A DNA stretch of 64,000 nucleotides, taken from positions 62,001 through 126,000 of IMG/VR virus record IMGVR_UViG_3300008114_000003; one strand, written 5' to 3'. The position numbers and the translations under genes were made by a program. The notes beneath the pieces were generated by a model. That model saw only the letters and a list, made by a program, of their open reading frames with translations, did no database searches and was not told the origin of the DNA. This document shows, piece by piece, positions 56,137 to 61,357 of this stretch. Source of the stretch: a virus. Numbering within the stretch: position 1 is the first letter of the stretch; each line of letters starts with the position of its first letter.

Positions 56137-56663
56137 TATTCACCTAATATGATTTTAGGATATCTAAATGGTTTACCATCTAATGTATATCCCTTACTAA
56201 CAACATCAACAATTTTCTTTTCACCAATTGGTAAAATTGATATAACTTCGTGTAAATCAGTATCATACTCTTCAGTTTGAATAGTTTCAATTCCTTGACC
56301 TTTTAAAAACTTTTCAATTTTAGAAGCGATTAACTCAACACCTTCTCGAGCTGAATCATCTTTAATATTTTTGATTGCTAAAGAAATATCAGAGTCCATA
56401 TCCAAAATAGAAGTAATCATAGAAACTTTTGTATTATTTCTTAATTCTTCTTTTTCTTTGATAACTCTTTTTTTATAGTTATCAAATTCAGCAGCTAATC
56501 TTAAATAATTATTATTTGATTCTTTTAATTGTTCTTCTAAATGAGAAACGTGTAGTCTTGGATTATCTTCTAATACAATTTCTTCATTCTTACCAGTTAA
56601 GTCAAGACCAACTTTTTGATCATCAATTTTCATACTCTCTACTTCAATCTTTTTATCTTCCAT
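56136..56663 (-). CDS. grpE: GrpE nucleotide-exchange factor
   Basis: 175 aa. Long N-terminal acidic/helical part, then RLAAEFDNYKKRVIKEKEEL (coiled-coil dimer helix), EFLKGQGIETIQTEEYDTDLH-type loop and the C-terminal beta domain GYTLDGKPFRYPKIILGE. It exchanges ADP for ATP on DnaK. One-base overlap with the downstream gene indicates a single transcript with dnaJ. Confidence 0.95.
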   Translation of the reverse strand: MEDKKIEVESMKIDDQKVGLDLTGKNEEIVLEDNPRLHVSHLEEQLKESNNNYLRLAAEFDNYKKRVIKEKEELRNNTKVSMITSILDMDSDISLAIKNIKDDSAREGVELIASKIEKFLKGQGIETIQTEEYDTDLHEVISILPIGEKKIVDVVSKGYTLDGKPFRYPKIILGE

Positions 56664-56667
56664 TTTA

Positions 56668-57156
56668 TTAATAATTAAATTTTAACATTTTCTTTATTGT
56701 TGCGGAGTTGTAAAACTCATAAGTAACATTCTTATCAACTACTTTGTGTATTTCTAATTTTTCAACTTCTAATTTAAAGTTATCAACATATTCAACTAAT
56801 TCTCTAAGAGATTTAGCATAAGATGCTGATGGTACCCAATAATCCGGAAACTTATCTAAAAATTTATCAACAGCTGTATCGAATGTTTTCTTTCTAATAA
56901 GTAAATATTCATTCACTTTAGAAGATTTGTTTGTTAAGATTTCAATGATGTAATTATTAAATTTGAAAATTAAGTTATCAGTTTCAATAACTTTTAAAAG
57001 TCCAATAACAAGAGCATCTTGTTCAGAGATAGAAACTTCAGTATTTTCCCTTAAAATTCTCTCAGCTTCTTTATCGGAACCACCTAAAATGTAATAAACG
57101 TAAGTGTCCCATAAACATCTTTTAACTATATCTTCTGGATATATATTTATAGTCAT
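56668..57156 (-). CDS. hypothetical protein upstream of grpE, 162 aa
   Basis: MTINIYPEDIVKRCLWDTYV; helical, with SISEQDALVIGLLKVIETDN and VPSASYAKSLRELVEYVDNF. First gene of the chaperone operon in transcription order, 4 nt before grpE. Role unknown. Confidence 0.55.
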   Translation of the reverse strand: MTINIYPEDIVKRCLWDTYVYYILGGSDKEAERILRENTEVSISEQDALVIGLLKVIETDNLIFKFNNYIIEILTNKSSKVNEYLLIRKKTFDTAVDKFLDKFPDYWVPSASYAKSLRELVEYVDNFKLEVEKLEIHKVVDKNVTYEFYNSATIKKMLKFNY

Positions 57157-57238
57157 AATATTATAATATTTTTCTTTATTATAGAAACATACATATATAA
57201 AGTTTATAATGTAATATATAACACAAAAAAATTAAAGA

Positions 57239-57415
57239 ATGAAGCATAAAATCAAAACACCAAACGGAGTAGGAACTCTAGAGAAAATATACGCTAGTGA
57301 ATTGGGGTTTTTAATGGTTAGAGTTTACTTTCCTGATACAAAATCATTTATAACATATAATGTTGATAAGTTAGAAAATTTTTTAGAAAATACACAATTA
57401 AAATTAGAAAAGTAG
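57239..57415 (+). CDS. hypothetical protein, 58 aa
   Basis: MKHKIKTPNGVGTLEKIYAS, a small beta barrel-like sequence (PNGVGTLEKIY ... MVRVYFPDTKSFITYNVDKL). The N-terminus resembles KOW/SH3-type small proteins that read tRNA or RNA. No motif recognised. Confidence 0.5.
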   Translation: MKHKIKTPNGVGTLEKIYASELGFLMVRVYFPDTKSFITYNVDKLENFLENTQLKLEK

Positions 57416-57423
57416 TATATTTG
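57416..57423 (+). promoter_or_regulatory. Bacteroidota-type -7 promoter element
   Basis: TATATTTG 18 nt before the ATG of the ligase remnant at 57442; it matches the TATATTTG at 58472-58479 before the intact ligase. Confidence 0.55.
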
Positions 57424-57441
57424 TGGAAAATTTAAAAAGTA

Positions 57442-57516
57442 ATGGAACAGACAAAATACAATCGGACATATCATCTACCTTGGTCACCAGGATCAACAAA
57501 TGATGATAATTTATTT
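57442..57516 (+). pseudogene. 5' remnant of a second Rnl2-like RNA ligase gene
   Basis: MEQTKYNRTYHLPWSPGSTN-DD... aligns with the start of the intact ligase at 58511 (MSKYPRTYHLPFSPGTTNDD). Only about 25 codons remain before similarity ends at the endonuclease gene, whose 3' end overlaps them on the other strand. The short frame continues to a stop at 57582 without ligase motifs. Same promoter type as the intact copy. Confidence 0.75.
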
Positions 57517-58424
57517 AAAACTAAAGAAGTTAAATCTTTAGTTTTTTTTATTTCACTTTCCCATATGTATATCACAAAATAACCTATTTCTTCCGCTTTT
57601 ATCCTTTTATCTCTATCTTTATCCCATATATCAGATACTTTCTTATAACCACCTGGGAATTTAATACTTTCATCTATATTATAGATCTCTGGATTACAAT
57701 GCCAATAATCACCATTTACTTCAATTAAAATGTTAGTATTCACTAACCTAAAATCAAATAATTTACCCTTTAGTGGGAATTGAGTTGTATATGATATTGA
57801 TAGATTGTTAAGAACTTCTGATATTTTGGTTTCTAAATTAGATTTGCCATTATAATTAAATATTTTATTTTTTTGTTCATCATTTAAATTGTTCCAATAT
57901 TTTTTAATTGATTCTTTTTGTTTACACTTTCTTATTTCATTTTCATCATCAGTTAAATTGTTCCAAGCAAAATTATTATCTATTATCCATTTTTTAAATT
58001 CATTATTTTTGAATATGTTATCAACACCATAATTTTTCATAAATGTGTCTGATTTTTTATTTTTAATATCCAATACCTTTGACACATTATCAACTCCATA
58101 CTTCTCCATACAAGTTTTTTTATACTTAATAGATGATATTAATTTTGAACTTTCTGAAATACTCCTCTTAGGTATTGAATAATACTCCAAAAGAAATATA
58201 AAAGATTTAAAATCGATATTAAAATCATTTTTAATATCAACTAGACTTTTTAAATTCTCAACATAATTTAATGTAATAACCTCTCTTTTTGAAATATGTG
58301 GAAAATTTTTTTGAATAAACATAAATTTTATTTCTCTTTTATCATTTGTAGTTTTTAATTTACAATGATATATGTGTGGGTTATTAAAAACCACAACATC
58401 ACAAAAGGGACACTTTCTAATCAT
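57471..58424 (-). CDS. PD-(D/E)XK-type homing endonuclease, 317 aa
   Basis: An N-terminal zinc ribbon (CPFCDVVVFNNPHIYHCKLK) and a central region of KYGVDNVSKVLDIKNKK-type repeats, then a Vsr-like nuclease: NLETKISEVLNNLSISY, LFDFRLVNTNILIEVNGDYW (Asp ... Glu-x-x-Gly-Asp-x-Trp) and WDKDRDKRIKAEEIGYFVIY. The last codons (FVDPGDQGR) lie antisense to the ligase remnant. TTAATATATA-N4-ATG precedes it (58429-58438). Confidence 0.85.
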   Translation of the reverse strand: MIRKCPFCDVVVFNNPHIYHCKLKTTNDKREIKFMFIQKNFPHISKREVITLNYVENLKSLVDIKNDFNIDFKSFIFLLEYYSIPKRSISESSKLISSIKYKKTCMEKYGVDNVSKVLDIKNKKSDTFMKNYGVDNIFKNNEFKKWIIDNNFAWNNLTDDENEIRKCKQKESIKKYWNNLNDEQKNKIFNYNGKSNLETKISEVLNNLSISYTTQFPLKGKLFDFRLVNTNILIEVNGDYWHCNPEIYNIDESIKFPGGYKKVSDIWDKDRDKRIKAEEIGYFVIYIWESEIKKTKDLTSLVLNKLSSFVDPGDQGR

Positions 58425-58471
58425 ACATTATATATTAAAGTGAAAAAGTTGTTTTTTACCATTTTTTCAGT

Positions 58472-58479
58472 TATATTTG
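58472..58479 (+). promoter_or_regulatory. Bacteroidota-type -7 promoter element
   Basis: TATATTTG 31 nt before the RNA ligase ATG at 58511. Confidence 0.55.
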
Positions 58480-58510
58480 TAACATAAACAATATTTTTGA
58501 ATATCTTATC

Positions 58511-59155
58511 ATGAGTAAATACCCAAGAACATATCATTTACCTTTCTCACCCGGTACTACCAATGATGATAGAATATCTGAGAGTGTTAAATCTATTTTG
58601 GGTATTGATATTATCATAACCGAAAAGTTAGATGGATCTAACTCATCGATGATAAATGAGGGTGTCTTTGCTAGATCACATATAGATTTTTCTAAAAATC
58701 CATGGGATAATGAAGTTAGACAACTACACGAAATAAAAGTAAAAGGTAATTTAGAAGATGATGTTTTTTTATTCGGTGAGAATATGGAAGGCATTCATTC
58801 AATAGAATATACAAATTTAAAATCATACTTTTATTTATTTGGTGTTAGAGATAATAACATCTGGACACCTTGGAGTGTGGTTGAAGAATATTCTTACTTA
58901 TTGGATTTACCACTTGTACCAGTTTTATTTAAAGGTATTGTAAATACCGAAAAAGAATTAAAAGACTTAGTTATGGGTTTTGTAACAGAACAATCTGAAT
59001 TAGGTGGATCAAGAGAAGGTATTGTCGTAAGAAATGCTGGTGTGTTTCATAATGATAATTTCTCGGATAATGTAATGAAATGGGTTAGAAAAGGTCATGT
59101 TCAGACAGATGAACATTGGACCAAGAATTGGAAAAAATCAAATATAAATTATTAA
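58511..59155 (+). CDS. Rnl2-like RNA ligase
   Basis: 214 aa nucleotidyltransferase core. Motif I TEKLDGSN (adenylated Lys39), motif III-like FLFGENMEGIHSIEY (88-100), motif IV REGIVVRN (168-175) and motif V VMKWVRKGH (Lys190, Lys194). Short, without a C-terminal specificity domain. Likely seals RNA nicks or breaks. The adjacent remnant shows that the gene was once duplicated. Confidence 0.85.
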   Translation: MSKYPRTYHLPFSPGTTNDDRISESVKSILGIDIIITEKLDGSNSSMINEGVFARSHIDFSKNPWDNEVRQLHEIKVKGNLEDDVFLFGENMEGIHSIEYTNLKSYFYLFGVRDNNIWTPWSVVEEYSYLLDLPLVPVLFKGIVNTEKELKDLVMGFVTEQSELGGSREGIVVRNAGVFHNDNFSDNVMKWVRKGHVQTDEHWTKNWKKSNINY

Positions 59156-59156
59156 T

Positions 59157-59339
59157 ATGACAATAGAAGAAAAAATTAAACTTAACAAAGAAATTAGATC
59201 TTATAAAGGTGATAATCAATTTATCATTTCTTTACAGAAAGCTCTGAAAGGTAATTATGTTCAAAAAGTAGAACATAATGGTAAGAATGTTAAAATTCTT
59301 TCTGATAAACAATACGAAGCAGCTAAGATAAATTTCTAA
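59157..59339 (+). CDS. hypothetical protein, 60 aa
   Basis: MTIEEKIKLNKEIRSYKGDN, small helical N-terminus and a basic strand end (NVKILSDKQYEAAKINF). It starts one base after the ligase stop, so is in the same transcript. Function not recognised. Confidence 0.55.
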   Translation: MTIEEKIKLNKEIRSYKGDNQFIISLQKALKGNYVQKVEHNGKNVKILSDKQYEAAKINF

Positions 59340-59369
59340 ACATTATATTCTACTCAGTATATAATCAAT

Positions 59370-59567
59370 ATGGAAAATTATATTGAAGATATGAAATTAT
59401 TAGGAACCGTACACTCTCACGGTTCAATAGATGAATATTACCATGTAAGAATTAAAGATGGTAAACAAACAACATTTGAATTTAGAGTTGTTAAACATAC
59501 AAAACAGAGAGTGAGTAGTTATAAAATAGATCAATCAGATCTACCAAAATCAATAGAACTTCAATGA
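59370..59567 (+). CDS. hypothetical protein, 65 aa
   Basis: MENYIEDMKLLGTVHSHGSI, a small beta sheet (FEFRVVKHTKQRVSSYKID). It overlaps the cytidylyltransferase gene by 4 nt. Function not recognised. Confidence 0.5.
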   Translation: MENYIEDMKLLGTVHSHGSIDEYYHVRIKDGKQTTFEFRVVKHTKQRVSSYKIDQSDLPKSIELQ

Positions 59568-59980
59568 GAGTAGGATTTACATGTTCTTGCTTTGACCTTT
59601 TTCATGCTGGTCATATTATGATGTTGAAAGAAGCTAAATCAATTTGCGATTATTTAATTGTTGGATTACAAACAGATCCTACAATAGATAGACCAGAAAA
59701 GAATAAACCAATACAAAGTGTTGTTGAAAGATTTATTCAATTAGAGGCTTGTAAATATGTAGATGAAGTTGTTGTTTACGCAACTGAAAAAGACTTACTA
59801 GATATTCTTTATTCTTATCCGATTAATGTTAGAATAGTTGGAGAAGAATATAAAGATAAAGACTTCACAGGTAAAGATCTATCACACATAGAAATGTATT
59901 ACAACTCTAGAAAACATTCATTCTCAACAACCGAACTAAGAGGTAGAGTTATCGAAAGATATAAAAGTGATAAAAAATAA
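59564..59980 (+). CDS. cytidylyltransferase-family (TagD-like) nucleotidyltransferase
   Basis: 138 aa Rossmann nucleotidyltransferase. FTCSCFDLFHAGHIMMLKEA carries the HxGH motif (HAGH), YLIVGLQTDPTIDRPEKNKP follows, and RKHSFSTTELRGRV corresponds to the RTxxxSTT motif of glycerol-3-phosphate cytidylyltransferases. It probably makes a CDP-polyol or activated sugar precursor. Substrate not deducible. In context it may feed surface or virion glycan modification. Confidence 0.8.
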   Translation: MRVGFTCSCFDLFHAGHIMMLKEAKSICDYLIVGLQTDPTIDRPEKNKPIQSVVERFIQLEACKYVDEVVVYATEKDLLDILYSYPINVRIVGEEYKDKDFTGKDLSHIEMYYNSRKHSFSTTELRGRVIERYKSDKK

Positions 59981-60002
59981 TATTATTTTATTAATTTTTC
60001 CG

Positions 60003-60010
60003 TATTTTTG
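60003..60010 (+). promoter_or_regulatory. TAnnTTTG promoter abutting a start codon (leaderless)
   Basis: TATTTTTG, then TAAA and ATG at 60015. Confidence 0.5.
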
Positions 60011-60014
60011 TAAA

Positions 60015-60116
60015 ATGAAATTTGAACGTGTTAAAAAAATCATACAAAAAATAGATTGGATTTGGGTATTCTTTCCCATTTACTATTATTGGAAAGATAT
60101 AGATGATTTAACTTAA
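60015..60116 (+). CDS. mini-protein with hydrophobic segment, 33 aa
   Basis: MKFERVKKIIQKIDWIWVFF, PIYYYWKDIDDLT. A basic amphipathic head followed by an aromatic/hydrophobic stretch, so possibly membrane-associated. Supported by a closely spaced promoter element and by its position directly before the Rnl1 gene. Function unknown. Confidence 0.45.
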   Translation: MKFERVKKIIQKIDWIWVFFPIYYYWKDIDDLT

Positions 60117-60133
60117 CTTAAAATTTTAATAAG

Positions 60134-61357
60134 ATGTACAATATACCAACATATAACGAAGCTGTCAAACTAACTCAAGGTAAAAGATATGTACCTGAGA
60201 TAGATCAATATTTAGACGCTGCTTTCTACGAGGCTAAACTTGTAGTTGATGGGTATAATGTATCTATATTCAACTATCGTTTAGCAACTTACAATGACTT
60301 TAAATACAACGATGCTTTTGAATTAAGAGGTTTAGTTTACGTCTTTAATGAAGATGGTTCTGTGTATAAATCATATAGATTGTTACATAAATTTTTCAAC
60401 TTAAACCAAGTTGAAGAAACTCAATACTCTTTAGTAAAAGATCGAGTTGTTAAATCTGTTTTCAATAAAGAAGATGGTTCTATTGGTTCTTTCATAAAAT
60501 TACCAAACGGAAATGTTGTTGCTAAATCTAAAATGTCTTTTGAATCAGACCAAGCTTATGGTATGAACAAAATATACAACTCTAACGCAGATATAAAAAG
60601 ATTTGTTGATTGGTCATTAGATAACGATTTAGTTGCTGTATTTGAGTATGTGGCTCCACACAACCGTATAGTTTTAAAATATGATAAAGAAGAATTAATC
60701 TTATTAAGATTAAGAAGAAACTCTACTGGTGAATACTTAAACCTCCACGATTATTCAGATGTTATAGGTAATTTAAAAACTGCTGAGTCTTTTGATCTAT
60801 CATTAGATGAATTGGTTGAATTGGCTAAAACTGTTGAAGGTGTTGAAGGTTGGGTAGTTGACTTAGATGGTTTATTTGTTAAAATAAAAACTGTTTGGTA
60901 TTGTGAAAGACATGGTCTTTTAACAGAAGACTTGTATCGTGAAAACATACTAGTTAAATACATATTAGATGATAAAATAGATGATGTCTTAGGTCAAATC
61001 CCAGAAGATGAAAAAGAAGCACACGCTCGTATAGAAAAAATAATAGCGGCTGTCTCTAAGGCAGTTAAAATGAAAGTTGATTCTATATTAGAAGATTGGA
61101 AAGTGTTTCAAACTATGGCTGATGGTAAAGATTGGACTGGTGATTTAAAAGATCAACTAATGAGAAAGTCTTATGCTATGAAGTATAAGAAAACTAAAAA
61201 TTTTGGAGCTGTGATGTCTATGGCGAAAGGTAACGATGTCTATGATATAGTTACTGAACAAATAGCTAAGGAAACTTTTAGATTACAAAATGCGAGAGCG
61301 TTTTTATTTCAAATAGATCCAACTCTAAACTTTAAAGATGGTGAAATAGAAGATTAA
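60134..61357 (+). CDS. T4 Rnl1-like RNA ligase
   Basis: 407 aa (T4 Rnl1: 374). AFELRGLVYVFNEDGSVYKS upstream, motif I NKEDGSIGS (adenylated Lys112), AVFEYVAPHNRIVLKY (motif III/IIIa), EGWVVDLDGLFVKIKT (motifs IV/V) and a C-terminal helical domain. The upstream FELRG stretch and the long helical tail match Rnl1. It repairs tRNA cut by host anticodon nucleases in T4; a similar counter-defence role is likely here with the PNK-like kinase. A weak inverted repeat (61356-61380) follows. Confidence 0.88.
   Translation: MYNIPTYNEAVKLTQGKRYVPEIDQYLDAAFYEAKLVVDGYNVSIFNYRLATYNDFKYNDAFELRGLVYVFNEDGSVYKSYRLLHKFFNLNQVEETQYSLVKDRVVKSVFNKEDGSIGSFIKLPNGNVVAKSKMSFESDQAYGMNKIYNSNADIKRFVDWSLDNDLVAVFEYVAPHNRIVLKYDKEELILLRLRRNSTGEYLNLHDYSDVIGNLKTAESFDLSLDELVELAKTVEGVEGWVVDLDGLFVKIKTVWYCERHGLLTEDLYRENILVKYILDDKIDDVLGQIPEDEKEAHARIEKIIAAVSKAVKMKVDSILEDWKVFQTMADGKDWTGDLKDQLMRKSYAMKYKKTKNFGAVMSMAKGNDVYDIVTEQIAKETFRLQNARAFLFQIDPTLNFKDGEIED

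Follow-up and report, generated by a model that had tools for sequence, protein, structure and literature searches.

The RNA ligase locus

The window analysed here is a 64-kb stretch from the 127-kb record of an uncultured giant phage. At the ligase locus, minus-strand genes and a 58-aa ORF are followed by a stub ORF, an endonuclease gene on the minus strand and a complete RNA ligase gene. The stub ORF starts at 57442 with MEQTKYNRTYHLPWSPGSTNDD and is open for 46 codons. Only its first 22 codons, to GATGAT (57442..57507, plus strand), are homologous to the start of the ligase, and past codon 22 the 46-aa ORF is the antisense of the endonuclease coding sequence. When the stub was compared with the ligase start at 58511, 41 of 54 nt were identical; the best other ungapped 54-mer anywhere in the 64-kb window had a score of 30. 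When the phage's own 127-kb record was searched by tblastn with the ligase as query, exactly two places were found, the stub and the intact ligase. These results confirm a preliminary description of this DNA, which had noted the start of a ligase upstream of the intact gene; the length of about 25 codons given there is reduced to 22.

A promoter-like box, TATATTTG (TAnnTTTG), lies upstream of each start on the plus strand. The box at 57416..57423 would belong to the displaced original ligase start, and the one at 58472..58479, in front of the present ligase, is read as carried by the element described below. The remnant thus has a promoter-like box of its own, as had been proposed. TAnnTTTG is also found in the same position before the ligases of the related loci L010-L014. 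The stretch after the stub was scanned for a terminator and none was found. An identical arrangement is present in three IMG/VR contigs from different samples, which excludes an assembly artefact. We considered a group I intron encoding the endonuclease and rejected it, since Rfam gave no intron match in 56500-60200 and the ligase ORF is complete without splicing.

The endonuclease

The endonuclease gene (57471..58424, minus strand) encodes 317 amino acids. Its stop codon falls in codons 10-11 of the stub, in agreement with the preliminary description, and the last 11 residues (SSFVDPGDQGR) together with the stop are encoded by stub DNA read in antisense, so that the end of the gene lies in ligase sequence. 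The tail past a conserved W is 29 residues long, compared with mostly 21 in relatives (range 14-29). Residues 311-317 have an AlphaFold pLDDT below 50 and are modelled as disordered.

Relatives of the endonuclease in PHROGs are annotated as homing endonucleases (E = 4.8e-13), while the match to the NCBIfam Vsr model is weak (E = 1e-3) and under its cut-off. In an AlphaFold model built from 17 relatives the C-terminal domain is modelled confidently, with a pLDDT of about 91-95 for most of residues 201-300. Using Foldseek, the best solved match of the catalytic domain was I-Bth0305I (3R3P; E = 1.3e-4, TM 0.77 to the target), and the second was Vsr (1CW0; E = 3.9e-4). D224, D239, H242, D270 and E289, candidates for the catalytic E, D, H and D of EDxHD enzymes, are invariant in 17 relatives. 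Because the best solved match of the modelled domain is I-Bth0305I, followed by Vsr, the predicted fold indicates that the enzyme is Vsr/EDxHD-like, of the I-Bth0305I type, and not a canonical PD-(D/E)XK enzyme. It is likewise not a LAGLIDADG protein of the HO/WHO/VDE kind. Vsr-like enzymes (I-Bth0305I/EDxHD) form a degenerate branch of the PD-(D/E)XK fold. The earlier assignment of a minus-strand homing endonuclease is thus retained, and its PD-(D/E)XK label applies in the sense of this degenerate branch only.

A 42%-identical endonuclease occurs in the 735-kb phage LR756501 (L132:7995-8918). It adjoins a tail-sheath gene, about 3 kb from the ligase of LR756501, and was rejected as a case of the same insertion for that reason.

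Relatives with a single uninterrupted ligase

The flanking gene order is kept in three huge-phage relatives, L003 (LR756502), L004 (LR745206) and L010 (an IMG/VR contig), each with one ligase and with neither endonuclease nor stub between the flanking genes. The left flank is marked by a 162-aa ORF (56668..57156, minus strand), found at 64-70% in all three, and by the 58-aa ORF (57239..57415, plus strand), which precedes the ligase in these phages too, at 33% in L003 and 40% in L010. The right flank is a 60-aa ORF (59157..59339, plus strand), found at 59-60% in L003 and L004. The nearest relatives of the window are about 70% identical to it, and a near-identical empty site is absent. None of the relatives has two ligases at the locus. 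An intact tandem pair, which the preliminary description had expected as the empty site, was therefore not found in the related phages compared, where L003, L004 and L010 represent the single-ligase state.

The 54-nt core of the stub is identical to the ligases of L003, L004, L010, L011 and L013 at 45-47 positions and to that of L012 at 41. The stub thus resembles the ligases of five of six relatives (45-47/54) more than its own neighbour (41/54), and its KYNRTYHLPWSPGSTNDD is identical in L010, L011 and L013. The stub is short, and 54 nt are all that enters into this comparison. Had the ligase been duplicated in tandem recently, the two copies in the window would be each other's nearest kin; after an old duplication, pairs would be expected among the relatives. 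Judged from these comparisons, the stub most likely represents the original 5' end of the resident ligase rather than what is left of a second copy.

The present ligase gene

The complete ligase (58511..59155, plus strand; 214 aa, PF09414) matches Pfam RNA_ligase with E = 5.5e-25 and has kept the nucleotidyl-transfer motifs KLDG, FGENM and EGIVVR. A search by sequence for solved relatives found none. The first ~67 codons are divergent, while the remainder resembles relatives. Of the positions that do not vary in five relatives, the window ligase differs at 12 of 52 within residues 1-77, compared with 4 of 76 within residues 78-214 (Fisher p = 0.005, with the boundary picked after viewing the alignment); such a pattern is seen in none of the other members. 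MaxChi places a break after residue 67 (permutation p = 0.037), and it also gives p = 0.032 for L003 at a different break. Nine of the 12 deviant residues are common to the HNH-ligase lineage of L016, compared with four for the next-best outgroup. In a tree of the N-terminal part the window ligase lies outside its relatives; a placement inside the clade was not rejected by the AU test (p = 0.43). Taken together, the alignments give a moderate chimera signal, and the 5' end of the ligase was likely imported and co-converted to about codon 67. A database search for the donor of the N-terminus returned only the three identical contigs.

Ligase homologues are altered in other ways elsewhere. In Prevotella phage Lak-C1 (L134:4983-8486) the homologue is in three pieces with two inserts of ~1.4 kb, the first of which has a TnpB-like ORF; an Rfam intron was searched for there and none was found. 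In L036:4990-5160 an independent internal deletion has cut the ligase to its first ~20 and last ~30 codons. An N-terminal HNH domain is fused to the ligase in one phage lineage (L016:4590-5684 and L005), and in L004 (7988-8308) HNH is encoded by a gene of its own after the ligase.

The same layout at other endonuclease loci

We compared the flanks at 63 distinct loci of related endonucleases. At five of these (the window, L041, L049, L079 and L107) the endonuclease is flanked left and right by the same gene start, with both copies on one strand, and L064 is a sixth locus with a stub, an endonuclease and a complete gene. In all, the layout occurs beyond the window at the loci of five other endonuclease families. 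Among mismatched-flank controls, 1 of 120 matched, and this one joined two loci with the same target gene. The orientation at L041 is exactly that of the window, with the stub forward, the endonuclease reversed and the complete gene forward. At the other four layout loci the target is a glycosyltransferase starting MKKLKVLVVPSDRTGVSYFRS.

A near-identical pair of empty and filled sites is provided by L162 and L107, which are 95% identical in their flanks. The glycosyltransferase gene is uninterrupted in L162. Counted from the ATG, the stub of L107 equals L162 over 56 nt (...GTAAGCTACTT). After codon 18, 1,014 bp consisting of the endonuclease and a complete new gene start are inserted in L107, and the L162 sequence picks up again at AGCTACTTCCG past this element. 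This comparison indicates that a single insertion creates the stub/endonuclease/complete-gene layout. The substitute 5' end in L107 has a new N-terminal extension that uninterrupted genes do not have. In the window, the end of the stub homology and the parallel with L107, whose 1,014-bp element is exactly delimited, would place the inserted element at 57508..58570. It would contain the endonuclease, the ligase promoter and the substitute ligase 5' end, and at ~1.06 kb it is of the same size as the element in L107.

The glycosyltransferase genes of L107:5320-7000, L064 and L076 also contain an apparent intein after RIGWLGGS (CMTPDTEIL...). Such a gene would be host to homing elements of two kinds, an intein and an endonuclease element.

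Glycosyltransferase cassettes with a stop and a short gap

In 15 distinct glycosyltransferase-type cassettes a stop codon follows directly after codon ~27. A TGA or TAA interrupts the gene immediately downstream of GVS or GVG, and coding restarts 2-10 nt past the stop in any of the three frames. The landing codon shares its first two bases with the codon before the stop in 15/15 cassettes and encodes the same amino acid in 14/15. Downstream of the gap the ORF is intact (mostly 378-778 codons). The substitute start in glycosyltransferase loci adds a short N-terminal extension, which usually contains TP and has R or Q as its last residue. Over 25 homologues that are not broken in this way also lack the extension. 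An inverted repeat, CCCCAG...CTGGGG, ends just before the stop. This repeat was part of the pattern used in the cassette search, and L107, L076, L064, L056 and L049 had been found before that search. In L041 the repeat keeps pairing through G-U pairs. The stop and gap are located in L107:5325-5480 and also occur in L138, L139, L140, L142-L146, L148-L150, L152-L154, L157-L159, L161, L082, L041 and L043. Short programmed translational bypassing would be the simplest reading of the cassettes, which we regard as candidate elements on the basis of their sequences. Upstream of the cassettes in L139, L142, L145, L149, L152, L154 and L159 no Vsr-like endonuclease was detected, with some of these loci ending early. 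The stop and gap may outlive the endonuclease. By contrast with the mobA/gene 60 type of bypass cassette, the ORF of the window ligase is continuous, with no stop and no gap between matched codons.

A homing element that would replace the 5' end of its target

The arrangement is best explained by one insertion of a ~1.06-kb homing element at about codon 22 of the ligase, where it would have replaced the 5' end of the gene and displaced the original start; we give this reading a probability of about 0.75. The free-standing Vsr-like endonuclease would cut the RNA ligase gene of phages that lack the endonuclease, close to codon 22. Along with the endonuclease gene, repair of the break from a donor would then copy in a promoter and start codon and a ligase 5' end that has diverged, the source of the divergent first ~67 codons. 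This 5' end would be resistant to cutting and would continue in frame into the remainder of the resident gene. In such a repair the stub and the sequence upstream of it would serve as one arm and the rest of the gene as the other. The original start, pushed upstream as a 22-codon stub, would act as the left homology arm in the next round of homing. Homing would leave the old start upstream as a stub, followed by the endonuclease and by a target gene that is chimeric and begins within the element, with no need for splicing.

The preliminary description had explained the locus by tandem duplication of the ligase and loss of most of the upstream copy on endonuclease invasion. Two ligase starts in direct repeat, one of them truncated at the endonuclease, are what such a history would leave. 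We nevertheless consider it unlikely and have abandoned it, since all syntenic relatives have a single ligase, the stub is nearer to those relatives than to its supposed sister copy and the parallel layout in L107 arose from one insertion into a single-copy gene. Slightly less likely again is a local origin of the present 5' end, by break-induced re-duplication of the start and quick divergence, possibly selected to escape cutting; the element would then have entered between the stub and this second start. Consistent with this, the N-part tree leaves the window ligase beside the same clade. However, the match of 9 of the 12 deviant residues to one outgroup, L016, looks more like import than random drift, and the extension on the substitute 5' end in L107 is absent from uninterrupted genes.

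We find it very improbable that the stub works as a small gene or leader in its own right, with a regulatory role for the ligase or the endonuclease. A promoter-like box, a frame open for 46 codons and an AT-only hairpin 3' of the stub could be taken for such a gene, but the hairpin is ordinary when compared with shuffles (z -1.5), the homology to the ligase ends at codon 22 with antisense endonuclease sequence beyond it, and comparable stubs at other loci have unrelated tails. Returning to the insertion of a 5'-end-replacing element, the case for a wider group is somewhat better than even: phage homing elements would insert in the 5' part of a gene, bring a substitute start and leave the old start as an arm stub. 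One branch belongs to the same estimate: its substitute start would close with a hairpin, a stop and a matched landing codon, and ribosomes would have to hop over 2-10 nt to make the protein, giving a family of short natural bypass elements that homing endonucleases would spread.

Comparison with known systems

WHO elements of Torulaspora and Lachancea yeasts replace the 3' end of FBA1 (PMC7282813). As in these yeasts, the endonuclease gene of the window has a complete copy of the target gene on one side and a displaced piece of it on the other. Empty alleles with one uninterrupted target are also shared, represented here by the distant L003, L004 and L010 and, for the glycosyltransferase, by the near-identical L162. 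Homing of WHO elements swaps one end of the target for a resistant version, the fragment acts as the second homology arm, no splicing is needed and the target gene is chimeric; the window element would do likewise. The two differ in that WHO uses HO/VDE-like LAGLIDADG proteins at the 3' end of FBA1 in yeast (PMC7282813), whereas the window element concerns a 5' end with promoter and start codon, a Vsr-like endonuclease and a phage. By analogy, the element would work like the WHO family without being a member of it.

Intronless homing in T4, with the free-standing SegF beside gene 56 and SegG beside gene 32 (PMC2988022), likewise places a phage endonuclease next to its likely target gene, which is co-converted. 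The T4 enzymes cut at sites hundreds to thousands of bases away from their own genes, and no displaced fragment is left behind (PMC2988022); in the window, by contrast, the element lies at the presumed cut site itself, within the target gene. In T4, mobA with the 50-nt bypass insert of gene 60 (PMC5009743) pairs an endonuclease with a protective change in the target, as the window element would, and it shares the stop and the matched take-off and landing codons with the glycosyltransferase loci. Its gap is 50 nt instead of 2-10 nt, and of the two only the glycosyltransferase cassette brings an entire new start for the gene; the coding sequence of the window ligase is without a gap. With I-Bth0305I and the EDxHD homing endonucleases the window enzyme shares its catalytic domain, as its best structural match. 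Unlike I-Bth0305I it is free-standing, with no intron found, and its other domains differ. In the open-licence literature, where WHO, intronless homing and gene 60 were found, we did not find phage elements replacing a 5' end or hops as short as these.

Short natural relatives of T4 gene 60 bypassing have long been presumed to exist (2016 review, PMC5009743), and the glycosyltransferase cassettes, if correctly read, would supply them. A phage element that replaces a 5' end, if true, would account for gene-start stubs and chimeric gene starts that annotation has missed, and its homing would be testable by simple cleavage assays. Homing elements in essential genes are normally harmless through self-splicing RNA or protein. 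Replacement of the gene's own end is a third route to harmlessness, described in the literature searched only for yeast, where WHO elements act on the 3' end of FBA1. If the 5'-end version in phages is true, this strategy would have evolved independently with a different nuclease.
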